From positions 62,001 to 126,000 of the forward strand of contig NZ_JACJQG010000006.1 of the NCBI RefSeq assembly GCF_014696435.1: 64,000 nt of DNA. The letters are read 5' to 3'. This document shows positions 9,213-24,135 of this stretch, piece by piece. Within the stretch, counting starts at the first letter, position 1. The number at the start of each line of letters is the position of its first letter. Source of the DNA: Calothrix anomala FACHB-343. GTDB lineage: Bacteria > Cyanobacteriota > Cyanobacteriia > Cyanobacteriales > Nostocaceae. Under the pieces are notes generated by a model, which was not told where the DNA came from, made no database searches, and was given only the letters and a program-made list of their open reading frames with translations. Position numbers and translations under genes: made by a program.

Positions 9213-12200
9213 TTAAAATCTGCTTTCATACTCAACTACAGCGCGTCCTTCATCGCCTAAATTAGTAGCCGCACGTACACGCACTTCATCATTTAAACGA
9301 TAAATTACGTTGTAAAGTAAGGGTTCGTTACTTGCAAATACTCGCGATAAAGATAAAGAGAAATTTTGGGAGATATCAAATACGCCTTCTGCGGCTAAAC
9401 CAAGAACAGAAACATTGGTATTTCTATTAGTTACCAGCGTGGGAAATAGGCGCAATTCACTTAAGCCAATGGTTTCACCGATTTGGCTGACAGTTCCTTG
9501 TAAGTTGGAAAATATTGCGGAACCGGCGATGTTAATTAGTCCTAAACCTGTATCGCCTTGTTGTAAAGTATTAAGGAACGAGCCGCCTAGTAAAGCGACG
9601 ATTTCACCGCGACTACGGCGAGGTTCGCTAGTTAATACGAGGTTTCTCGATAATTGACTTGCTGGGCCTTTGGCGATCGCTTGAATGCGGACAGTATTTA
9701 AGGTACCAAAGTCAATGGCGGAAATATCTTGAATTTCGCTAGATATGCGTGAGGTTCGTCCTAAGGTGCGTGTTGCTTCGGGAACAATGGCGATTAGGCG
9801 CACATCTAAGGTGGGGTCAAATCCTCGACTGGGGGTAAATGTTGCGGTTTGATCGTAACCACGGGCTAAGGTAAATTGGGTGGTGAATAAGTTGATTTGA
9901 CCTCTTCGCAGACTTACTGTTCCTTGGGGACGGAGTTTAGCTAAGGTTCCGTTGAGTGTAATGTCTCCTTGGGCGACGAAGCTGAATAGAGGTTGACGGG
10001 TAACGCGGATATCGTCGGCTAGGATTAGTTGTAAGTTAGCAAATTCTACAAGAATTCTCTGTGTATTTACGGGTGTGGCTGTTGTGGCAGGATTCGTATT
10101 AGTGGCTGTTTGCGGGGATGTTATGGTGATTTCGGGAGAATTGGCTGTTGGTGTGGTGGTATTATTTATAGCAGTTGTGTTTCCGAGTAAGACTTCGCCA
10201 TTGTTTAGCTCAATTGTACCGCCTAGTCTGGGTGCCAAGGCTGTGCCTGTGATGACTGCATTACCACTAACTCCGCCTTGATATAGGTTTTGAAAGTTCA
10301 ATTGCAAGTTATTTATCGCCACGGTGAGGGGGTTACTGGCTGCTTGTTGTTGGGCGTTTTGTGTGGCGAAAATGGGGAGAATTCCTGTGGCTGTTAATTG
10401 TCCGCGACTGTATTGGGCTTGGAGATTATCGACAATTAAGCGATCGCCTGCAAATTGCGCTGTGCCTGTAACATTAGTTAGGGGTTCTGTCAGGCTTTGG
10501 ACGTTGAGTGTGGCATTATTAATTGTGGCAATGCCTGTAGTGCTTGGTTGCTTGAAGGTTCCCTGAATTTGGACGTTGACTTGTCCTTGTCCATCTACCC
10601 ATTTGACTTGATTATTTAATAAGTTTAATAATGCCAAGCCTTCATTTTGTACGTTAGCTTGAATGCTAATACTATTATCTGGCTCAGTAGAAGCAAAAGG
10701 TAATGGAGCCGGAATACTCCCGTTAATTTGAATGGGTTCTGTACCCGTAACTAAAACATTACTGCCAAAATTTAGCCGCGCATTATTATAGTTGTAAGCA
10801 ACTTGGGCTGATTGAATAGATTGATTATTTAAGCTACCATCTACTAACGCTAATTCTCCCACGGCTTGGGGATTATTTAAACTCCCACTAAGGGTTGCAT
10901 TAGCATTGATATTTCCGGCAATATCTACAGGTAATTGGGGAAAGAAAGGTTTAATATCTGCTAGGGCTAAATTTTGGACTTGCGCCTGTCCTGAAAGAGA
11001 TTGCTGGCTTAATTGTCCGGTAAAAGCTAGGAGGGAATTATTAAAATTGACTTGCAGAGGTTGTAGAGTTAAATTCCCGTTTTCATAATTACCGCTAGCA
11101 ATAAGTTGATTAATTTTATAATTACCCCAAACCCAATCATTACCTGTAAAATTAAACCCAATATTGAATCCAGAGCGCAAACTACCAGTTACGCCTAATC
11201 TACCGCTAATGATTCCTTGTAATTCTTCTAAAGTGGGAATGCGCCGCGATGCTTGTTGTTGAGTTCTAGTTTGGTTGACTTGGGTTTGAATTTTCGAGAT
11301 AAAATTGATTTGTCCTAATAAATCTGTATTGGGTAAACTAACTGGCTGAGTTTGCAAGGCTTCTGCACCAGCTAAGTTTGGCGGTTTTAAGCCAGTACGA
11401 ATATCTGTAAAATTGTATATATTTAGAGTTTGCAGTAAATTTTCAATTCTGGCTTGGTTAAAGCTAACTTCAAACTGTAAGGGATTATTACCTGTGGTGG
11501 GTAAGTTTCCACTGAGTAAATAACGGGTGTCGCCTTGGACTAGTTCGCCATTCGTTAAACTGAATGTGCCTTTACCATAACTGATATTTCCGCGAAATTC
11601 ATCAGCTTGAATTCTGCCTATTCTTGGTTGAGCTACGGCGACATTCCCCAGTAAACTATAATCATTGAGGTTAACTGTTAAATTACCGGATAACTGTCCG
11701 TTAATTGTGCCTAAATTGGTATTGGCAGGAATGAAGCTTTTAGCTAAAGATATGGGAAAATCTTGGACGTTGACTGCAAGATTATCGCCAACCGTGCGTC
11801 CTGTCGCAATTGTGGAATCTCGTCTAATATTAAATGCAGTGGGACGATTATTTGCGCCTAAAGAAACAGCAATTTGGTCTTGGGTTCCAGCAACTTGAAA
11901 TTGCGTTCCTTGTCCCTGCTGATACCTGACATTTCCTGTTAAGACTGGATCGAATGCTAACCCATTGACTGCTAAATTTTCTAAGCGAATATTTCCATTA
12001 GCAATTGGCTGCGTTGGCGTACCGGAAACTTGTCCGTTAAAATCTACCCTTCCCGCTAAAGCAACATTTCCCGGAAGCTTAAACGGTAGAGTTTGCAAAT
12101 TATAATTTTGTGCTTGGACATTGAGATTTAAGCCGGTAATTTGGGTAGTGGGTTGCAATGCCACAGCAATATTACCACTTGCCCTTAAACCGGGTGCGGT

Positions 12201-14989: not shown

Positions 14990-15235
14990 GATGAGACAAC
15001 TATAAGGTTTATAGGACTTACGCACGAAACCTCTCAAACTCTTATTCCTCTGTGGACTCTGCGTCCTCTGCGGTTCATTTTTCCGTTAACTTTGCGTAAG
15101 TCCTAGCTTAATGAGACAACTTTAAGACTCAATGAGACAAATATAAGACTTAATGGCACAACTATAAGACTTAATGAGACAAATATAAGACTTAATGGCA
15201 CAACTATAAGACTTAATGGCACAACTATAGGAATC
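14990..15235. repeat. 21-bp tandem repeat array, interrupted by a small element
   Basis: Six adjacent 21-bp units fill 15110-15235 (starts at 15110, 15131, 15152, 15173, 15194, 15215). Two alternating versions occur: AATGAGACAAATATAAGACTT and AATGGCACAACTATAAGACTT. One more unit lies at 14990-15011, separated by the inverted-repeat element 15012-15105. No unique spacers, so this is not CRISPR. Non-coding in all frames of any length. The unit resembles the directly repeated transposase-binding sites at the ends of Mu/Tn7-like elements, which is inference only. Confidence 0.75.
15012..15105. mobile_element. TAGGACTTACGCA element, copy 1 (inside the 21-bp array)
   Basis: Perfect 13-bp terminal inverted repeats TAGGACTTACGCA (15012-15024) and TGCGTAAGTCCTA (15093-15105). 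Flanked by GTTTA and GCTTA, a probable 5-bp target duplication with one change. A second copy with the same ends and a different interior is at 45616-45757. Confidence 0.75.
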
Positions 15236-15378
15236 ATATTTGATTTCTGAAAAACACGTAGGGTGTGTTACCGCGAAGCGTAACGCACCGTTTTTTAAGG
15301 GTTTGGTGCGTTAGACTGAAGTCATAACGCACCCTACAAGTACCTAATTTTATTCAAAATTCAAACCGGATTCCTATA
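15226..15378. mobile_element. TATAGGAATC element with a nested inverted repeat
   Basis: 10-bp inverted ends TATAGGAATC (15226-15235) and GATTCCTATA (15369-15378); read as TA-flanked, this would fit an IS630-like TA target duplication. Inside sits a second inverted repeat, GTAGGGTGTGTTA (15258-15270) and TAACGCACCCTAC (15325-15337), a phrase common in cyanobacterial intergenic DNA. It begins within the last 21-bp unit, and a further partial unit (AAGACTTAATG) follows the right end, so it too entered the array. Confidence 0.65.
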
Positions 15379-15789: not shown

Positions 15790-16260
15790 ATGCCTAATTC
15801 ATCGTTTATAGCTTCCAACCAGAAAAATGCTGCAACCAAGCGGGATGTGAAGCAAGTTCCGTTTGTGGAGTTATTCAATCATCGCGTACAGGGAGTAGTT
15901 TCTAGTGGTTCTGATATTGAAAGAGTGTATGTATCTTTTTTTGAAGCCGGAACCCTAGATTATTATTGTAGTACCAATAATAATCGCCCTTGTGGGGGTT
16001 TAAGCGGCTATCCCTGCAAACATTTGCAAGCTGTGATGAAAGAAGCGATCGCAGCTTACGGTATTGACCAAGTAATTAATTATCTTAAAGTTCCCGGCGA
16101 CCCCAGTCAAATTACTTCCCTGAACGACATCATCAACCGTCGCGGTACAGTCAAAAAAGAACCAGCCAGCGAAGTTTTCAGCCGTTTCTTAAATTACCTC
16201 CGCTACCTCGAATTACAAACCGCTAACTCTCCCCTCCCCGAAATGAGTTGGTTTGTGTGA
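15790..16260 (+). CDS. SWIM-like zinc-finger protein of a MoxR/vWA cluster
   Basis: About 156 aa from the ATG at 15790; TTG 15748 and ATG 15778 are in frame but give residues unlike the rest. The middle holds YYCSTNNNRPCGGLSGYPCKHLQ-type spacing, that is C-x7-C-x7-C-x-H, a SWIM-like zinc finger whose first pair is wider than the canonical CxC. A helical C-terminal half follows (FSRFLNYLRYLELQ). SWIM fingers bind nucleic acid or protein. It is the first gene of a plus-strand series with a vWA protein, a MoxR ATPase and a DUF5682-like protein; SWIM proteins are recurrent partners in such clusters. Confidence 0.6.
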   Translation: MPNSSFIASNQKNAATKRDVKQVPFVELFNHRVQGVVSSGSDIERVYVSFFEAGTLDYYCSTNNNRPCGGLSGYPCKHLQAVMKEAIAAYGIDQVINYLKVPGDPSQITSLNDIINRRGTVKKEPASEVFSRFLNYLRYLELQTANSPLPEMSWFV

Positions 16261-16354
16261 TTGTCATTTGTCATTTGTCATTTGTCATTTGTCGCACGCA
16301 ACAGTTACAGAGATTTAATTTTGAATTTTGAATTTTGAATTTTGAATTGTAAAC
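16261..16354. repeat. Heptameric short tandem repeats between cluster genes
   Basis: Two adjacent heptamer tracts: TCATTTG units (about 16262-16293) and ATTTTGA units (about 16319-16346). They separate the SWIM-like gene from the next one, so the two may not be tightly co-translated. Confidence 0.7.
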
Positions 16355-17743
16355 ATGGCTTTCCCCGGCGCATTGCATCAAATCAGCGACAGCAATCAAG
16401 AAATATTCGAGTTGATTGCGAGTTTAGATGAGTGTTTTATTACTGGTTTTGCGAATTTAGATGAGCAACATTTACAAACTTTACAAGCTGTAGAGCGTGT
16501 ATTTACTGGCACGCCTTTACAATTATCTTTAGCGGAATCTACTCAGGCGATTAGCACAAATGAGTTTGTCGATAAGCATTTTGCGGTGTTGGCGACTGTC
16601 CGCGCGGCAATTCAAGGAGCGTTATTTGATACATTACAATCTCAAGTTAGGAGTTTGTTAGGACGCGCAGCTATAGCTGAAGTAGAACAGAAACATGAAG
16701 CTGAAGAACCGCCGAATAATGTCAAAGTCTTGTTAGCTAGTGTACGTCACTGGTTAATGGAAATTGCTTTAGTCGGTTATGCACGTTTAGATATCGCCAC
16801 TTTGGTTCCGTTTTTAGGGACACTGGAACAAATCCAAGCGGAACCTTTATTAGTTAGACAAGCTGCTTTACTGACTGGCTATTTTAATGAATTGATGCGC
16901 AATCTTCCCGTCGCTGATAGTGCAGCAATTCCTAAATATCGTTGGGTTGATTTGTGGACTCAGGCGATGTTAGGCACTGTACGCCCAGCTATTTTACCCA
17001 AATCACAGCCAATATCGGGAAATTTAGAAATTTTAGGTTTAGATTTACGCCAACATGCCAATTTAGTTAGTTTTACAGCCTACGGGTTACTAAATGCAAA
17101 CAATCAAACTCAACTGGTGCGAATTACCCAATCAGCTTACAAAGTAGATGCAATAAATAACGAGCAAATTTGGCTGTTATTTACCAATGCAGCTTTGTTA
17201 TTCGATGCTTTCGCCCAAAATCGCGTCTTGAAAATCACAGATGTACCCTTGCTACCTACTGGAGATTTATTGTGGCAAGGTCAAGGCGAACTTGGTGAAA
17301 ATTATAACTTGATGAAACGGGCGGCGGAATTTTTTGCTGAGAATACAGGGAATAGCTTGATTTATTCTACAGTTGCCGCGAGCGATCGCCATCCCATCCA
17401 AATCGCGGAACCGATATATCTCAGTAATTATCAAGTTGTGAAAAATGACGAGAATATTGTTTTAAGTTGGGGTGATGCGGGAGAACTCAGCATTGCTAAT
17501 GAACGTATCAGCAGTTTATCAGAATTAAATTTAGACATAATCGCCAAATCTCAGCAAATCTTCGGCTTATTACGCTTTGATGCGGGTAAATGGTCAGTGC
17601 AACCTTTAGCAGTAGCAGTGAAAAACAAAATCACATCTACCGGACAAACCGCAGCGTCAGTCATTGCGAAAAAAGATTCCATCAAAAATAGCGTTGTGGG
17701 AATTTTACAAGAACGTTCTAGCAGACTACTGCGTAAGGGTTGA
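16355..17743 (+). CDS. Uncharacterised helical protein of the MoxR/vWA cluster
   Basis: 462 aa, ATG start, no signal peptide or membrane segment. The N-terminal two thirds are rich in Leu and Ala and predicted helical (LASVRHWLMEIALVGYARLDIATLVPFLGTLEQ), the C-terminal third more beta-like (ILSWGDAGELSIANERISSLSELN) with a basic end. I see no catalytic motif. Its position, between the SWIM protein and the vWA protein, is where related clusters in other bacteria carry a DUF5691-type helical-repeat protein; that equivalence is positional and unproven. Stop codon TGA at 17741-17743 overlaps the ribosome-binding site of the next gene, implying co-translation. Confidence 0.6.
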   Translation: MAFPGALHQISDSNQEIFELIASLDECFITGFANLDEQHLQTLQAVERVFTGTPLQLSLAESTQAISTNEFVDKHFAVLATVRAAIQGALFDTLQSQVRSLLGRAAIAEVEQKHEAEEPPNNVKVLLASVRHWLMEIALVGYARLDIATLVPFLGTLEQIQAEPLLVRQAALLTGYFNELMRNLPVADSAAIPKYRWVDLWTQAMLGTVRPAILPKSQPISGNLEILGLDLRQHANLVSFTAYGLLNANNQTQLVRITQSAYKVDAINNEQIWLLFTNAALLFDAFAQNRVLKITDVPLLPTGDLLWQGQGELGENYNLMKRAAEFFAENTGNSLIYSTVAASDRHPIQIAEPIYLSNYQVVKNDENIVLSWGDAGELSIANERISSLSELNLDIIAKSQQIFGLLRFDAGKWSVQPLAVAVKNKITSTGQTAASVIAKKDSIKNSVVGILQERSSRLLRKG

Positions 17744-17751
17744 GGAAAATC

Positions 17752-19179
17752 ATGGATACAGAACAAATTGCTCAACGCCGTCAAGTTGTATACTGGCGCT
17801 TGCTAACGAGTATGTTTGGCTTTAGCGAACAGGGTGCAAATTTTGAACACATGGCGACGGAAGTTGTCAGCGAGTTAAATTTACCCCAATTAATCCTCGA
17901 CCCTAATATTAGTATTGAAAACTTACTGCATCGTTATCCAGAATTAGAAGCAGATTTTAATAATCCCATAATTCCCCAAGACGACGCAACGCCGGAAGCT
18001 GAAACCGCTACCCTACGTCGAGGCTTAGTTTTCTCCAAATTACTCCTAAATGCTTTCGGCCCCAACACCCAAACCGGAGTTGTCACCGCACAACAATACG
18101 CCCAATGGCTGAAAGATGTCGGCTTTTTAGAAAAAGCCTTAGGATGTCCCCCAGGAAGTTTACGCGGACAAGGGCCAGGAATGGGGAAAAATCCCGGACA
18201 GCAAAATCAAGGACAAGGTAGCAGTCAAAGTGGTGGTATGGGTGCGGGTTTGGGTACTGGTGGCGGTTTCACCGTTACCGAAGAACAACTACGCGCCACT
18301 CTCAAAGCCTTAGAAGGCGAATTAATTCACCGCATGGCTTTACACGAAGTCCTCAAAGATGACAGATTAGCCAGTCAACTTACGCCATCAATGGCTTTGG
18401 TGGAACAGTTATTACGGGAAAAAGCCAATTTATCAGGAAATGCGCTGAAAAATGCTAAACGGTTAATTCAGGAATATGTAGACGAACTCGCGCAAGTTTT
18501 GCGGTTACAAGTCGCGCAAGCTGTCGCTGGAAAAATTGATTATTCAGTTCCACCAAAACGGATATTTCGCAACTTAGATTTAAAGCGGACAATTTGGAAG
18601 AATTTAACTAATTGGAATCCCGAAGAACAGAGATTATTTGTTGATAGATTGTATTACCACCATACAGCCAAGAAAAAAACACCAACTCGCATGATTGTAG
18701 TTGTTGACCAATCAGGTTCAATGGTGGATGCGATGGTGCAATGTACAATTCTCGCGTCAATTTTCGCCGGACTTCCGAATGTGGATGTACATTTATTGGC
18801 GTTTGATACGCAAGTAATTGATTTAACAGCTTGGGTACATGACCCCTTTGAGGTTTTATTACGGACTCAATTAGGTGGGGGAACACATATTTATGCGGCG
18901 TTAGTAGAAGCTGCACAAAAGATTTTAGAACCAAATAATACGGCGATGGTGTTAATTTCTGATTTTTATGAAGGTGGTAGCGACCAAGTTTTATTCGACT
19001 ATATTAAATCGTTGAAGGAGTCGGGATTGCATTTTATTCCCGTGGGTGCGGTGACGAGTTCGGGATATTTCAGCGTGAATCAATGGTTCAGGGATAAGTT
19101 GAAGGAGTTAGGTATGCCGATTTTAACAGGGAGTCCGAAAAAGTTAATTCAGGAGTTAAAAAAGGTGATTGTAACTTAA
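17752..19179 (+). CDS. vWA (von Willebrand factor A) domain protein, MIDAS intact
   Basis: 475 aa from ATG 17752, preceded by TGAGGA six bases upstream; an in-frame start at 17740 lacks this. An N-terminal helical part (1-135) is followed by a Gly/Gln-rich flexible linker (about 138-172), a second helical part, and a C-terminal vWA domain. The metal-ion-dependent adhesion site is complete: DQSGS (Asp319, Ser321, Ser323), Thr378 in GGGTHI, Asp404 in ISDFYEGG. vWA proteins paired with MoxR ATPases act as substrate adaptors (as ViaA does for RavA). The overall layout, helical N-part then vWA at the C-end, matches the ViaA/CoxE type. Confidence 0.85.
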   Translation: MDTEQIAQRRQVVYWRLLTSMFGFSEQGANFEHMATEVVSELNLPQLILDPNISIENLLHRYPELEADFNNPIIPQDDATPEAETATLRRGLVFSKLLLNAFGPNTQTGVVTAQQYAQWLKDVGFLEKALGCPPGSLRGQGPGMGKNPGQQNQGQGSSQSGGMGAGLGTGGGFTVTEEQLRATLKALEGELIHRMALHEVLKDDRLASQLTPSMALVEQLLREKANLSGNALKNAKRLIQEYVDELAQVLRLQVAQAVAGKIDYSVPPKRIFRNLDLKRTIWKNLTNWNPEEQRLFVDRLYYHHTAKKKTPTRMIVVVDQSGSMVDAMVQCTILASIFAGLPNVDVHLLAFDTQVIDLTAWVHDPFEVLLRTQLGGGTHIYAALVEAAQKILEPNNTAMVLISDFYEGGSDQVLFDYIKSLKESGLHFIPVGAVTSSGYFSVNQWFRDKLKELGMPILTGSPKKLIQELKKVIVT

Positions 19180-19367
19180 AGATATTTATTTGGTAGCACA
19201 CAATTCCTTCTCATTCTTCTTCTTTGTGACCTTTGCGCCTTCGCGGTTCGTTAAAAAAGATTTATAACAACGAACCGCGTTCGCGAAGCGTCTCGCAGAG
19301 AAGACGCGAAGAACGCGAAGGGAAGAGAGTTTAAGAGAGATTTTACATTAATTATTAGGAGATAAAA
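19180..19367. repeat. Intergenic repeats with a second 21-bp dispersed repeat
   Basis: Between the vWA and MoxR genes. It contains facing CGCGGTTCGTT / AACGAACCGCG phrases (19240-19280) and, at 19280-19300, a reverse-orientation 20/21 match of the small repeat at 9108-9128. An AGGAG site (about 19357) precedes the MoxR start. Confidence 0.6.
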
Positions 19368-20522
19368 ATGGCAAGGGCTAAGAGTAATAATACAAGTAGC
19401 GAAACGAAAGATAATACTGTGATGCTGCGCCAACCGGCGGAAATGAAATATGCAGAAGAATTGGAATATTTAGCCTCAATTGATAAAGGTACAAAGCCGT
19501 TTTCTTGGCGACTGTCGCCGCAAATGGTGCGGACTTTTGTATTGGGAAGTACGCCATCGCAAAAGTTAGATAGGCAAATTGAGCAGAAATGGTATGGCGA
19601 TAGTGCGATCGCCGAACGTGCTATTGTCACTTTAGCCTCTGACCGTGGTTTACTGTTAATTGGCGACCCCGGTACAGGTAAAAGCTGGTTAGCTGAGTTA
19701 CTAGCGGCGGCGATTTCTGGTAATTCTACTTATGTAGTCCAAGGAACTGCGGGAACGACAGAAGACCAAATTAAATATTCTTGGAACGTGGCGATGGTAA
19801 TTGCATCTGGTCAATCCCGCGATTCTTTGATACCCTCACCCATTATGACAGCCATGCATAGCGGCGCAATGGGTCGGTTTGAGGAATTGACGCGCTGTAC
19901 TTCTGATGTCCAAGATGCACTGATATCCATACTGAGCGAAAAGTATATTTCAATTCCCGAATTAAAAACAGATAACGTAGCTTTTGCGCAACCCGGATTT
20001 AATGTCATCGCTACAGCCAACAGCCGCGACAGGGGTGTGAATGAACTTTCTTCAGCCTTAAAACGGCGGTTTAATTTCGTACATATGCCGGTGGTGACGA
20101 ATAAGAAACAAGAAAAAGAAATTATCCTTTTCCGCACCAAGGAATTAATGAACCGTCACGGTTTTGAAGTCGATGTTCCGCCAACATTATTAGATGTATT
20201 ATTGCAGACCTTTGCCGATTTGCGCGAAACCAGCGCCGCCGCTAGTTCTGATGACCAGCGTTTAGAATCGGCGCTTTCCACAGCCGAACAAATCGGTGTG
20301 TTAGAAGATGCGATTTTACACAGCAGGTATTTTGGTGCGACTAATTTAGAAGCGGGTACATTAGCCAAATCATTAGTCGGTACTTTAGTACGTCGTCAAC
20401 CAGAAGATATTTCCGTGATGAATCAATTTTGGCACGCCGTTGTGGAGAAGCGCAGTCAAGAACAAAAAGGTGAATGGGAAGCCTTTCTCGAAGGTGGAAA
20501 ACAAGCGATGGGGTTATTTTAA
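19368..20522 (+). CDS. MoxR-type AAA+ ATPase
   Basis: 384 aa, AGGAG ribosome-binding site. Walker A is GDPGTGKS (residues 99-106). Sensor 1 is IATANSRDRGVNELSSALKRRFNF, including the SALKRRF arginine region (about 215-236). The usual Walker B ADEINR-type motif appears as GRFEELTR (169-176), so the aspartate is replaced by glutamate while the catalytic glutamate is kept. MoxR proteins form hexameric chaperone-like machines that remodel protein complexes together with a vWA partner, here the preceding gene. ATP hydrolysis is plausible but the altered Walker B deserves a check. Confidence 0.9.
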   Translation: MARAKSNNTSSETKDNTVMLRQPAEMKYAEELEYLASIDKGTKPFSWRLSPQMVRTFVLGSTPSQKLDRQIEQKWYGDSAIAERAIVTLASDRGLLLIGDPGTGKSWLAELLAAAISGNSTYVVQGTAGTTEDQIKYSWNVAMVIASGQSRDSLIPSPIMTAMHSGAMGRFEELTRCTSDVQDALISILSEKYISIPELKTDNVAFAQPGFNVIATANSRDRGVNELSSALKRRFNFVHMPVVTNKKQEKEIILFRTKELMNRHGFEVDVPPTLLDVLLQTFADLRETSAAASSDDQRLESALSTAEQIGVLEDAILHSRYFGATNLEAGTLAKSLVGTLVRRQPEDISVMNQFWHAVVEKRSQEQKGEWEAFLEGGKQAMGLF

Positions 20523-20650
20523 GCATTACGCAAGAACTCTCTATAACTCTCTTTCCTTCGTGTCCTTCGCGCCTTCGTGGTTCGTTTTCTCTTTTATCTC
20601 ACGCAGAGACGCAGAGGCGCAGAGAGGAACGTAAAAGTGATACGAGTACC

Positions 20651-21193
20651 TCAATCAAATTCTACAGGCCATAAATCGGAAACTGCTACTTCCCAACCTG
20701 GAAGCAATTCCGGAACCGTGAGTACATCACCATTGTGCAGTACTATTACTTCTTTTCCCACATTGTAAACTTCCACCACTTGTTCATCAGGATTCAACAA
20801 AATTCCGACTGTAGTTCCCAAACTCAGAAATTCTTGAATCTTCGCTCTAATATCCTCTAAATTATCGCTGGGGGACTTGACTTCAACAATTAAATCAGGA
20901 GCCAATTGAGCAAAAGTTTTGGGACTGCGACGCAAACGTTCAGCTAAGACAAACGAAGCATCTGGTGCGCGCAAATCTGAGTTTGGCAATCTAAAACCAG
21001 CGCTAGAAGCTGTTATTCGTCCTAACTTACGCGGTTTTACCCAGTTGTATAACTGAGACACCATCGTAGCAGCAACTTCATCTGATTCGTATCCTGATGG
21101 ACTCATGACAATAACATTACCTTTAACTAATTCCATGCGGTAGTCGGGGTACTGTTGCTGCATTTTCTCTAAATCTTCAACTGTCAGTGACAT
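20651..21193 (-). CDS. Uma2-family putative nuclease, antisense inside the MoxR cluster
   Basis: About 180 aa from ATG 21193, which has GGAGG four bases upstream; the longer frame to 21259 lacks this. The nuclease core reads DLRAPDASFVLAERL, DLIVEVKSPSDNLEDIRAKIQEFL and a following VYNVGKEVIVL strand, the pattern of PD-(D/E)xK Uma2 proteins. It lies on the opposite strand between the MoxR gene and the DUF5682-like gene, both on plus, so it was probably inserted into an existing cluster rather than being an original member. Confidence 0.85.
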   Translation of the reverse strand: MSLTVEDLEKMQQQYPDYRMELVKGNVIVMSPSGYESDEVAATMVSQLYNWVKPRKLGRITASSAGFRLPNSDLRAPDASFVLAERLRRSPKTFAQLAPDLIVEVKSPSDNLEDIRAKIQEFLSLGTTVGILLNPDEQVVEVYNVGKEVIVLHNGDVLTVPELLPGWEVAVSDLWPVEFD

Positions 21194-21321
21194 AAAGCCT
21201 CCGATTCTGACATGGGTTGTATTTATATTATGGAGAATCCAGAACACGCCTACCCACAAATGACAAATGACAATTGTACAGACAAGGGTTCATCGCATCT
21301 CTAATGACTAATTAATAAACT

Positions 21322-24135
21322 ATGGTTACTCTCCCAACTGCATTCAACGCACTCCAAGAACAACTCCTCAACGCTGCGGAAAAATTCGCTACCGATGCAC
21401 AACCATTAAGCGAAATGCTAACCGCTTTAATACAAGACGTAGAAAAAGCCAGCAGCGAACCCCTCGAAATCTTCCCCGTCTGTCACCACTCCCCATCCTC
21501 TGCTTTACAGATGGTGCGACGTTTAAGGGAAAAACCGCCGAAAGTCATCTACTTGGAACTGTGCGAAGACTTACAAAACACCGTGGAAAATCTCCGCCAT
21601 TGTAAATTACCCGTCGCTTTACAAGCCTTCGCTGCCGAATCTGAGCATTTTTCGCCCAAAATCATGCCGTTGAGTGTGGTTGCACCCATCACCGAAGCTT
21701 CCGCAGAATATCAAGCGATCGCATTTGCGCTACAAAATCCCCAAACTCAGCTAGTATTTGTTGATAGAGCGGTGGATTTTGTCTTCCAATGGGAACCCCC
21801 TGATACTAAACTGGCTGAAGAATCAGAGGAACCCGCCAGCGATGAAGCAAAAATGCATGGTTCGGCGGTTGGTGTAGAAGTAGGTAGTCTCGTCCCTACT
21901 TTCGACCAATTTTTAAGCTTTTTACTCCGCAACTCCAATACCCGCCACTTTTCGGAATGGTGGGATGAATATGTAGAAACCGCAATTATTGGCGCAGACT
22001 ACGAAACCTACCGCCAAGTCATGTTCCTCATCGGTAGCTTAATGCGCCGCTTAGGAACCCGCAACAAAGATATCGAAATCGACCGTCAGCGCGAACGCTA
22101 TATGTGGACTTCCATGAAAAAACACATGGCGACGCATAATATTGCACCATCGGAAGCTATCTATATATGTGGTGCAGCACACTCAGCTAGCGATGTAGAA
22201 GAATACAGCGTTACTAATAATAATATCTGGGAAATTCCGGAACGCACTCAAACCAAATGGTTATACGGTTTAATTCCTTCCAGTTTTGCGGCTATCGAAT
22301 ACCAATTTCATCACCCAGCAGGTACGGTATCGCTAGCGGAAGCAACTTGGAAAAAGAATCTCAAGGTTACGGGATTAAAGGGATTTTCACTCAATAAAGA
22401 AGAGAAAGCCACTAAAACCAAACCAAGTCCTGTTACAGCGACAAATTCCAACCTCACCGCCTTTTTAACTCGTCCCCCAGAACTAGCCGTAGCTGACACA
22501 GAACAATTATTGCAATGGTGCGCTGATATTGTCGGATTGGCGCGGAAAAATGCCTATTTAGCGAGTACAGCAGACTCTATCGCCATTTATCAAACCTCAA
22601 TGCTGCTAGCTGGGATGCGGAACCGAATGCACCCCACGCCTTACGATTTCCAAGATGCAGCTATTACCTGCTTAGAAAAAGACCGCACTCCCAAAAAACG
22701 TAATATTTACCAACTTTGCCAAATTTTACTCGGAGGCGATCGCATTGGTACGGTTGGTTACGCTTCTTTACCTCCCCTAGCGCAAGATGTATATGACAGA
22801 CTTCAACCTCTGGGAGTCAACCTACTTGCACAAACCAACCAACGCGCCTTAATGGATTTCAAGCAGCAACCGGAACTTTTACCCTGTTCTGATGTGCTGT
22901 GGCGATTGCATTATTTGTTGAGTGATACGATTGTCAAGCCAATTATAGGCGATCGCAGTCTTGGTTCCAAGCCTATTCAAGAATCTTGGGAAATTCGCAT
23001 CGGTAAATACCAACGCCATCTAATTATGCTCGGTTATGAAGGTGTCAGCATCGAGCAAGTTTTAGAACAGCGCCTCAAACAAACAGCTTTCTCTCCCCAA
23101 GCCAAAACCAGCGATGTTCTCAAAGCCACGGAAGATAGTATTTTATACGCGCGTAGCCTCCGCTTAACGCAAGAACTCGGAGAACATGCGATTTCTCTCC
23201 TCAAACAAGAAACAGGTGTCAGCGACGCACCCCAAGTATTTGAGCGAGTCCGCAGGTTAGTACATTATTACCGCGCCACACCCACAGCCTTACCGCAATG
23301 GATAGAAAGTTTTGTTACTACAGGCTACGGACATTACGCCACCTTACTACCCCAAGCCTTTGCTGATAGAGGAACTACCCCTGAACAAATCGCCGGGATG
23401 TTGAATTTTATTTTCACCCTGGAAAGTTTAGCGTTATCTCTTGGTTGTAACCGCAGTCAATTATTAATCGGTGTTAAACAATCCAGCCAAGGTTTAGATG
23501 ACCCAGCCAAAATCGGTTTATTATGGACAACTGAATGGTTACTAACATTAAGAAAATTAGAAGAAATTCGGGAATTCTTCAATGATGTGATTAACAATGA
23601 AATGTTAATTAAATCTTTCCCCGAATACCTAAATGGGTTTATTTTATCTTTAACCTTTGCACCGAGAATTAGTAAATTTGTCGTCGAACTTCTGAGTAAA
23701 TTATTCGCCACCGTTCCCGATAAAATTTTATTACCTTGGTTACCAAGCCTAATTCTTAAACTGCGACCCCATGCGCAAATTCTCCAAGGATTAATCAAAG
23801 AAGCCTCAAGTAATTTCCCGAAGAATTTAGCTGGCTTTAATAACTGGATTCCTGCATGGTCAAAGCCGCAACCTGAGATGCAAAAGCAGGTTCAGCTAGT
23901 TGAGGCTGCACCCACACTCAGCAAAAGTGAGTTAAGAATTAGAGAATTTCTATTTAATTCACCAGCTACAACTAATGCGTTAGCCAAATTATTAGGTATT
24001 GAAAATTTGAGTTGGGAAGAGAATTTAGAAACTCCTCAAACTCCCAGCCATAATTTATCTGAATCAGAATCAAAAATTCAACAATTAATCTCTACCCATC
24101 CAGCAACCTTAAACTACTTTGCTACCCTATTATAA
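21322..24135 (+). CDS. DUF5682-like large protein of the MoxR/vWA cluster
   Basis: 937 aa, no signal peptide. The N-terminal part begins with PVCHHSPSSALQMVRRL (from about residue 52) followed by KVIYLELCEDL, matching the GVRHHSPAC..LVEGP opening of DUF5682; IYICGAAHSASDV (about 282) is a second conserved patch with a histidine. This resembles the TraB/ChaN-like fold in its Gly-x-x-His arrangement, but that is inference. Residues about 350-900 are predicted helical repeats. The last about 60 residues contain two short similar blocks (SELRIREFLFNSPATTNALAKLLG and SESKIQQLISTHPATLNYFATLL). It is a recurrent partner of vWA and MoxR proteins; activity unknown. Confidence 0.7.
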   Translation: MVTLPTAFNALQEQLLNAAEKFATDAQPLSEMLTALIQDVEKASSEPLEIFPVCHHSPSSALQMVRRLREKPPKVIYLELCEDLQNTVENLRHCKLPVALQAFAAESEHFSPKIMPLSVVAPITEASAEYQAIAFALQNPQTQLVFVDRAVDFVFQWEPPDTKLAEESEEPASDEAKMHGSAVGVEVGSLVPTFDQFLSFLLRNSNTRHFSEWWDEYVETAIIGADYETYRQVMFLIGSLMRRLGTRNKDIEIDRQRERYMWTSMKKHMATHNIAPSEAIYICGAAHSASDVEEYSVTNNNIWEIPERTQTKWLYGLIPSSFAAIEYQFHHPAGTVSLAEATWKKNLKVTGLKGFSLNKEEKATKTKPSPVTATNSNLTAFLTRPPELAVADTEQLLQWCADIVGLARKNAYLASTADSIAIYQTSMLLAGMRNRMHPTPYDFQDAAITCLEKDRTPKKRNIYQLCQILLGGDRIGTVGYASLPPLAQDVYDRLQPLGVNLLAQTNQRALMDFKQQPELLPCSDVLWRLHYLLSDTIVKPIIGDRSLGSKPIQESWEIRIGKYQRHLIMLGYEGVSIEQVLEQRLKQTAFSPQAKTSDVLKATEDSILYARSLRLTQELGEHAISLLKQETGVSDAPQVFERVRRLVHYYRATPTALPQWIESFVTTGYGHYATLLPQAFADRGTTPEQIAGMLNFIFTLESLALSLGCNRSQLLIGVKQSSQGLDDPAKIGLLWTTEWLLTLRKLEEIREFFNDVINNEMLIKSFPEYLNGFILSLTFAPRISKFVVELLSKLFATVPDKILLPWLPSLILKLRPHAQILQGLIKEASSNFPKNLAGFNNWIPAWSKPQPEMQKQVQLVEAAPTLSKSELRIREFLFNSPATTNALAKLLGIENLSWEENLETPQTPSHNLSESESKIQQLISTHPATLNYFATLL

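Follow-up and report, generated by a model that had tools for sequence, protein, structure and literature searches.

A YehL-type MoxR/vWA gene module in Calothrix anomala with a putative hydrolase and a probable link to DNA damage

Five genes in a 64,000-nucleotide stretch of the genome of the cyanobacterium Calothrix anomala FACHB-343 (contig NZ_JACJQG010000006.1, positions 62,001 to 126,000; the whole stretch is called the window here) probably encode a single ATP-driven MoxR/vWA remodeling complex of the YehL type, with a putative TIKI-type hydrolase and a link to DNA damage, radiation, or desiccation. In order, they encode a SWIM-like zinc-finger protein, a 462-aa protein without known domain, an adaptor with a von Willebrand factor A (vWA) domain, a MoxR AAA+ ATPase, and a DUF5682 protein, an arrangement (SWIM-462-vWA-MoxR-DUF5682) referred to as the W architecture. 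All five open reading frames (ORFs) of the original prediction, made from the letters of the window alone, were recovered at the same coordinates in the 9.24-Mb genome (G000). That prediction held the combination to have no known function; it is still uncharacterized, but it is a branch of the known YehL family, represented by E. coli yehLMPQ and Deinococcus ddrTUVWX, a relationship that had been missed. Loci and genomes are cited below by number (L and G, respectively).

Membership in the YehL family

MoxR/vWA pairs such as RavA-ViaA and NorQ/NorD remodel a bound partner. The MoxR gene of the window (19368..20522, on the forward strand, as are the other four genes of the module) matches Pfam AAA_5 (E 4e-38), and its product is 38% identical to YehL over 362 aa (E 6e-84), against E 0.019 for RavA. 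Walker A lies at 19662-19685 and the Walker-B region, FEELTR, within 19872-19895; the usual Walker B reads D-E, whereas the window has E-E, and both glutamates are invariant in 15/15 aligned YehL-type sequences. The comparison covered two of the seven MoxR subfamilies (YehL and RavA; the subfamilies are listed in the part of PMC3893208 consulted), and YehL was the nearer of the two. YehL-type relatives adjoin vWA, DUF5682, and SWIM genes, a pattern drawn from the loci compared here and not from a published definition, and the window gene has the same neighbors, with SWIM below the Pfam threshold.

The vWA adaptor (17752..19179; 475 aa from an ATG start) falls in Pfam VWA_CoxE (E 5e-35) and is 31% identical to YehP over 328 aa (E 6e-52). 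Its metal ion-dependent adhesion site (MIDAS) is complete, comprising DQSGS at residues 319-323 (18706-18720), the threonine of GGGTHI at 375-380 (18874-18891), and the aspartate of ISDFYEGG at 402-409 (18955-18978), and the predicted low-complexity linker is present as a Gly/Gln-rich segment at residues 141-173 (18172-18270). The DUF5682 gene (21322..24135; 937 aa) matches PF18934 (E 8e-27, 94 bits) and encodes a homolog of YehM. The Pfam matches and motif residues thus bear out the domain assignments originally made for these three proteins, which, judged by their sequences, are homologous to YehL, YehP, and YehM of E. coli.

The family includes two other architectures. The D architecture, SWIM-DUF5691-MoxR-DUF5682-vWA, occurs in cyanobacteria (L036, L037, L039) and in Deinococcus, Nocardia, Nonomuraea, Methylobacterium, Methylosinus, Rhizobium, Hymenobacter (with SWIM and DUF5691 fused), and Fusobacterium (with no detected DUF5691). 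The Y architecture, DUF4132-MoxR-DUF5682-vWA-SWIM or close variants, is exemplified by E. coli yehI-yehQ and by loci of Iodobacter, Agrobacterium, Sinorhizobium, and Nonomuraea. Natural fusions include a single DUF5682-vWA protein in the Y locus of Streptomyces atratus (L051) and a SWIM-DUF5691 protein (L053), and copies of the family were seen in Cyanobacteria, Actinomycetota, Deinococcota, Pseudomonadota, Bacteroidota, and Fusobacteriota. In a tree of 31 MoxR sequences plus RavA, the W, D, and Y types each formed one group (100/100, 99/99, and 99/96) and W was joined with Y (99/99), with a very long RavA branch that makes the root unsure.

Several individual copies are of separate interest. 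One replicon of Nonomuraea gerenzanensis carries all three architectures (L049, L075, L079), and in a Methylosinus plasmid module (16217-17385 of L076) the vWA gene is broken into three ORFs. The conjugative E. coli plasmid p11B (L050) holds yehI and yehLMPQ homologs through to mlrA in a chromosome-like stretch near IS26 and resistance genes. The cyanobacterial D operon L036 has a gene for a SUKH-1 family protein inserted between DUF5682 and vWA (10878-11483), and Deinococcus radiophilus plasmid pRadio2 has, in the stretch read, only a SWIM remnant (9120-9257 of L187), with a type I-C CRISPR-Cas locus about 3 kb away.

Conservation and co-occurrence of the module

Twelve cyanobacterial loci were chosen through DUF5682 similarity, and the gene order that the original prediction had proposed to check was identical in all 11 complete loci; the twelfth, L009, is cut by the end of a 4.9-kb contig that holds only part of MoxR and DUF5682. 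The same order was found in 5/5 actinobacterial loci or replicons (two Streptomyces, two Embleya, and Nonomuraea; plasmid loci), whose vWA and DUF5682 proteins are 52-54% and 48-52% identical to those of the window, respectively. In the sequences compared, W-type MoxR proteins of cyanobacteria and actinobacteria share 72-73% identity, versus 38-44% with the D and Y types, so that W is a distinct lineage spanning two phyla.

Three of the proteins (DUF5682, the 462-aa protein, and vWA) were searched in 218 genomes of the window's family. DUF5682 was matched in 19 genomes, the 462-aa protein in 17, and vWA in 35, of which 16 matched at 77% identity or more; the other 19 hold only distant vWA copies (29-37%), which are not of the W type and were left out of the 16. 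Rather than co-occurring rarely, which had been named as the outcome that would speak against a module, DUF5682, the 462-aa protein, and W-type vWA occurred in the same 16 genomes, on one contig and within about 7 kb, measured between starts. In one of these, G218, DUF5682 consists of two adjacent pieces, and the surplus DUF5682 and 462-aa matches come from G234, where the copy is truncated, and from G202 and G203, which hold fragments. A chance cluster was rejected on the conserved order and the shared 16/218 genomes. The distribution is patchy, covering 8 of the 56 genera in the family.

A second panel comprised 146 cyanobacterial genomes, with no correction for genome relatedness and with one DUF5682 match below the cut-off (G054) excluded. 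DUF5682 exceeded the cut-off in eight of these, YehL-type MoxR (E<=1e-20) was present in the same eight, and vWA (E<=1e-10) in seven, the gap being G038, a genome 73% complete. DUF5691 was above its cut-off in the same eight minus the window's own genome, which was the only one of the 146 to match the 462-aa protein. The genes are far apart on one chromosome in G002 and G066 and on different contigs in G118, still co-occurring. Among 14 control genomes, DUF5682 was found in two (E. coli and Deinobacterium chartae) and DUF5691 in D. chartae alone.

Gene order, co-occurrence, overlapping genes, and natural fusions together suggest one assembly, and the five proteins, as originally proposed, likely form a physical complex. 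In the two actinobacterial W loci measured, all junctions overlap by 1-31 nt, that between vWA and MoxR excepted, and the 462-aa and vWA genes overlap by 4 nt in both. Translational coupling of these two genes had been predicted for the window as well; there the overlap requires a TTG start for vWA at 17740, and the ATG at 17752, 8 nt past the stop of the 462-aa gene, is in our judgment the likelier start.

An antisense Uma2 nuclease-like gene (20651-21259, reverse strand; identified as an ORF and by Pfam) interrupts the module between MoxR and DUF5682. As only seven of the 11 complete cyanobacterial relatives carry Uma2, which is missing in L002, L006, L008, and L010, it is taken as a passenger and was rejected as a part of the module. 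Short direct repeats (tataagacttaatgg-type, with gtcattt- and tttgaa-type runs) were noted by eye at 15100-15240 and 16260-16350 of the window, upstream of the SWIM gene and between the SWIM and 462-aa genes.

The zinc finger and the 462-aa protein

The SWIM-like protein (15790..16260; 156 aa) scores 11.6 bits against Pfam SWIM, below the cut-off of 19.6, and in place of the canonical CxCx(n)CxH it has an expanded C-x7-C-x7-C-x-H site (15967-16023), whose four ligands are invariant in 17/17 aligned sequences, the window counted. The finger, originally described as SWIM-like, departs from the canonical domain in spacing and score. In profile comparisons it matched the canonical SWIM protein at E 0.0028, then at 0.0084 with more sequences, and gave no match to YehQ (E 0.91).

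The 462-aa protein (16355..17743) has no Pfam match at E<=1, and its identification as DUF5691 was rejected (E 0.6). Described initially as helical, it is so in at most its N-terminal half in a low-confidence structural model, in which the chain is beta-rich beyond residue ~219. Its profile scored 25.8 against the C-terminal part of YehQ, compared with 22.9 for the best of 120 permutations and 16.0 for the reversed profile; against the canonical SWIM protein it scored 22.0, with two of 120 permutations higher, one at 21.9, and 17.4 when reversed. Both matches weakened as sequences were added. The C-terminal GLLRFDAGKW..QPLAV aligns with YehQ 516-560 and the helical part with canonical SWIM proteins, barely above permutations. 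On these grounds the 462-aa protein may, by a slight preference, be the detached C-terminal half of a YehQ-type protein, which fits the sizes (156 + 462 versus 614 aa), the neighboring gene order, the natural split of YehQ in Iodobacter, and the grouping of W with Y.

DUF5682 as a putative hydrolase

Profiles of W-type DUF5682 and of the other DUF5682 proteins align over 539 columns (probability 99.9), and H55, E79, G284, and H287 are kept in 38/38 DUF5682 sequences. TraB/TIKI proteins are defined by two GX2H motifs and a conserved glutamate. The N-terminal domain of DUF5682 is predicted to resemble these hydrolases, described as 2His/2Glu in the part of PMC6254334 consulted, and may have hydrolase, perhaps peptidase, activity. 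Against a TraB/GumN profile, built from proteins of cyanobacterial genomes and scored after a row in the wrong frame (L163) had been dropped, it scored 33.9 (E 5e-4, probability 32%), compared with 23.7 for the best of 100 column permutations; the match spans 40 columns that take in the first His motif and the strand after it. Another run with TraB and Ere, with one extra mis-framed row (rows L175 and L184 were empty and L185 was excluded), brought out the RE..M/GAxH region at 25.5, versus 19.7 for the best of 60 permutations.

In the window, the corresponding motifs are PVCHH (in 21475-21504), E79 (in 21547-21570), RE..M (22090-22104), and CGAAH (22168-22182). The spacing from histidine to glutamate is 24 residues in both DUF5682 and a TraB row, and the late GAxH and the RE..M helix are shared; unlike TraB/TIKI proteins, DUF5682 of the window type has PVCH for GxxH, offers no identified second catalytic glutamate, and carries a large extra C-terminal region. 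Sequence searches of the PDB gave nothing useful.

Evidence for regulation by DNA damage

The published operon ddrTUVWX of Deinococcus deserti (Deide_18730-18690), which belongs to the radiation/desiccation response regulon, is radiation-induced and begins with SWIM and ends with a CoxE-like vWA gene (PMC5552922, as far as consulted). Among the most radiation-induced genes, the same source lists Deide_18730 (SWIM) at >10-fold and Deide_18720, _18710 ("conserved protein"), and _18690 (CoxE-like vWA) at >5-fold, four of the five genes; Deide_18700 was not noticed in that table. A radiation/desiccation response motif (RDRM) stands upstream in all four operon-bearing species of the seven compared (PMC5552922, in the portion consulted). 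Judging by the number of its genes, their order, and the names of their products, ddrTUVWX is evidently a D-type operon. In D. taeanensis, a scan with what we take to be the RDRM motif letters found a single RDRM-like palindrome across 21 kb, placed 36 nt ahead of the SWIM gene, and none was found around the SWIM remnant of D. radiophilus. Depletion of DdrO in D. radiodurans raises the levels of a DUF4132 protein and of one that is WGR/MolR-like (PMC8533742, as consulted in part).

A second line of evidence comes from Actinomycetota, for which a LexA/RecA-independent damage motif, tTGTCRgtg-8nt-TannnT, has been described (PMC5656591, in the part consulted). TTGTCRGTG-N8-TAnnnT lies ~67-107 nt before the SWIM start in 5/5 actinobacterial W operons, with 11, 12, 10, 11, and 12 of 12 positions matched, the five sites being partly of common ancestry and so not fully independent. 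On both strands of the 96.7 kb of these loci, seven sites matched at 10/12 or better, five of them the operon sites, and all four at 11/12 or better were operon sites; none at 11/12 or better occurred in the window or in eight non-actinobacterial loci. Weaker sites of 10/12 are found ahead of the D operon of Nocardia, at 51 nt from an ATG, and ahead of the Y locus of Nonomuraea, at -61; a Nonomuraea D site coincides with the start codon, and the S. atratus locus has no such motif. GAACN4GTTC was absent before the five actinobacterial W operons. Damage control of the window module itself, and with it a DNA-damage function in the cyanobacterium, is what we infer.

Comparison with known systems

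Among known systems, E. coli yehL-yehM-yehP-yehQ is close in its parts, with the SWIM protein YehQ completing a set otherwise made up of the MoxR, DUF5682, and vWA homologs, and in its position beside W in the MoxR tree. It differs in order (MoxR-DUF5682-vWA-SWIM), a DUF4132 gene is missing from the window module, and YehQ is a single 614-aa protein with two CxC..CxH motifs where the window has a 156-aa finger and a 462-aa protein. Deinococcus ddrTUVWX shares the five-gene format with SWIM first. The D. taeanensis copy reads SWIM-DUF5691-MoxR-(small hypothetical)-DUF5682-vWA. The Deinococcus type differs in that it contains DUF5691, its SWIM protein has ~460 aa, and its MoxR is of another clade, whereas W places vWA before MoxR and has no DUF5691, so that the window module is not of the ddrTUVWX type.

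RavA-ViaA is likewise an established MoxR plus vWA remodeler, but membership was rejected on the RavA comparison and on a ViaA model score of 17.7 bits against a cut-off of 500. The MoxR-vWA ternary conflict systems with VMAP, iSTAND, FtsH, or beta-propeller components (PMC7159879, as far as consulted) resemble the module in having a MoxR-vWA core with further partners; their third components were absent from the Pfam scan of the window (E<=1), with bpMoxR at 18.1 bits against a cut-off of 27, and membership in these published systems was rejected. The main text of that paper, in the part consulted, has neither "SWIM" nor words beginning with "DUF5" (PMC7159879). An NCBIfam scan of the core proteins yielded nothing useful.

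Alternative explanations and points against a damage-linked complex

The original prediction allowed for either a conflict or a stress system. The Deinococcus data and the actinobacterial motif favor the stress half; an anti-phage or kin-conflict system like the ternary ones, in which the MoxR-vWA switch would release DUF5682 as an effector upon invasion, is unlikely. Such a role would suit the patchy distribution, the broken module copies in some genomes, the presence of copies on plasmids (in one case next to an integrase and a type I restriction system), the multicellularity of both cyanobacteria and actinomycetes, and the published ternary precedent. It would also suit the hits to 51 PADLOC families (E<=1e-10) among 88 flanking ORFs (at least 150 aa, non-overlapping) of 11 cyanobacterial loci, yet each family occurs in at most three of the 88, and several are kinases, AAA proteins, or peptidases judged generic. 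Among the 25 of the 51 families listed, mad2 was found in three ORFs, mad3, PtuA, LmuB, and AriA in two each, and PD-T4-6, IetS, mad6, and MkoA in one each, and the commonest Pfam families were methyltransferases and HD (four each), TPR and DUF1400 (three each), and transketolase, MFS, ferritin, SMC/RecN, and nSTAND1 (two each). No recurrent defense neighbor thus emerged from a flank test that had no random-locus control set, which leaves room for a mild enrichment.

Within the module, no PADLOC model match identified a known anti-phage system; the models matched only MoxR and vWA, weakly (best 8e-6, mad8), and none of the other three proteins. The parts are scattered yet retained in three cyanobacterial genomes, unlike mobile cassettes, and the promoters are tied to DNA damage. 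On viral contigs, the best 80 of at least 197 confirmed MoxR relatives are just 26-36% identical, and no relative of the 462-aa protein was confirmed there; a vWA match at 27.5% comes from a 14-kb "phage" record that lacks annotation. The conflict reading is weaker than that of a DNA-damage or stress function because of the weak PADLOC matches, the lack of a recurrent flanking defense family, and parts that differ from those of published ternary systems.

It is also improbable that the module is a maturation chaperone in the manner of CoxD/CoxE or NorQ/NorD, inserting metal into one enzyme with the zinc finger and DUF5682 as accessories. The VWA_CoxE assignment and the NorQ/NorD precedent fit that role, and yehI, next to yehL, encodes DUF4132, which with MolR has been linked to molybdate, but genes of molybdate metabolism were unchanged in the same study (PMC8533742, in the part consulted). 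No metalloenzyme gene recurs in the annotated loci, eight plasmid loci having little or no annotation. That only MoxR and vWA cooperate, the other genes being neighbors with separate housekeeping roles, is very improbable: the antisense gene does part DUF5682 from MoxR in the window, but the order shared by two phyla, the overlapping genes, the exact co-occurrence, and the fusions all argue otherwise.

Several observations weigh against the damage-linked remodeling complex itself. The five actinobacterial sites, like the RDRM, are matches in sequence, that is, candidate promoters. None of the damage boxes scanned for is found repeatedly in front of the 12 cyanobacterial copies; matches came from L008 and L011 alone, lay far upstream, and were to E. 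coli-type patterns. Cyanobacterial LexA control was rejected for this reason. No strict LexA box (CTGTN8ACAG) precedes E. coli yehF, yehI, or yehL, where loose CTG-N10-CAG sites stand at -25 and -422 of yehF and at -351 of yehI. The window's genome lacks DUF5691, which the Deinococcus-type operon includes, and phage infection also triggers DNA-damage responses, so that induction alone is compatible with defense. As to the enzyme, the TraB match is short, with its 40 columns and a probability of 32%, its two motif regions come from different runs, and the first GX2H motif has proline for glycine in the window type. Comparison with Ere did not rise above permutations (23.9, permutations up to 26.0), and the Ere family was rejected for DUF5682, in a comparison of low sensitivity in which TraB and Ere themselves went undetected (E 0.19). 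AlphaFold models of DUF5682 and the 462-aa protein (mean predicted local distance difference test scores of 39 and 43, respectively) are unusable, the former for its fold.

Proposed mechanism and significance

In the proposed remodeling complex, the MoxR ring (YehL type) would work with the vWA adaptor (YehP type) as in the MoxR/vWA pairs already studied: the two would engage a partner by way of the MIDAS and use ATP to remodel it. The constant partner would be DUF5682 (YehM), with its predicted TraB/TIKI-type N-terminal domain, and the zinc finger and 462-aa protein may form a targeting or scaffold part jointly equivalent to YehQ. After induction of the operon by damage, the zinc finger and the 462-aa protein would direct the complex, and the MoxR ring would power the presumed hydrolytic action of DUF5682 on a client. 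A bolder version, which we hold to be speculative and rather doubtful, is a widespread damage-inducible "remodel-and-cut" machine unlike Clp, Lon, and FtsH, in which the MoxR ring and vWA would load or gate a TIKI peptidase, DUF5682/YehM, and the SWIM-type finger would aim it at proteins on damaged DNA; its control would lie with damage regulators that are unrelated to one another (IrrE/DdrO, PafBC-type), and E. coli yehLMPQ would be an unrecognized member.

A literature search of partial coverage found no paper with the term DUF5682 and none joining these gene sets. The relationship described here unites, as one AAA+ system, three gene sets to which no function has been assigned, namely yehLMPQ of E. 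coli, ddrTUVWX of Deinococcus, and the cyanobacterial and actinobacterial module. It gives them a testable function, survival of DNA damage or desiccation, and a testable enzyme, DUF5682, which, if it is a TIKI-type hydrolase, would represent a new way of coupling a MoxR ring to hydrolysis.

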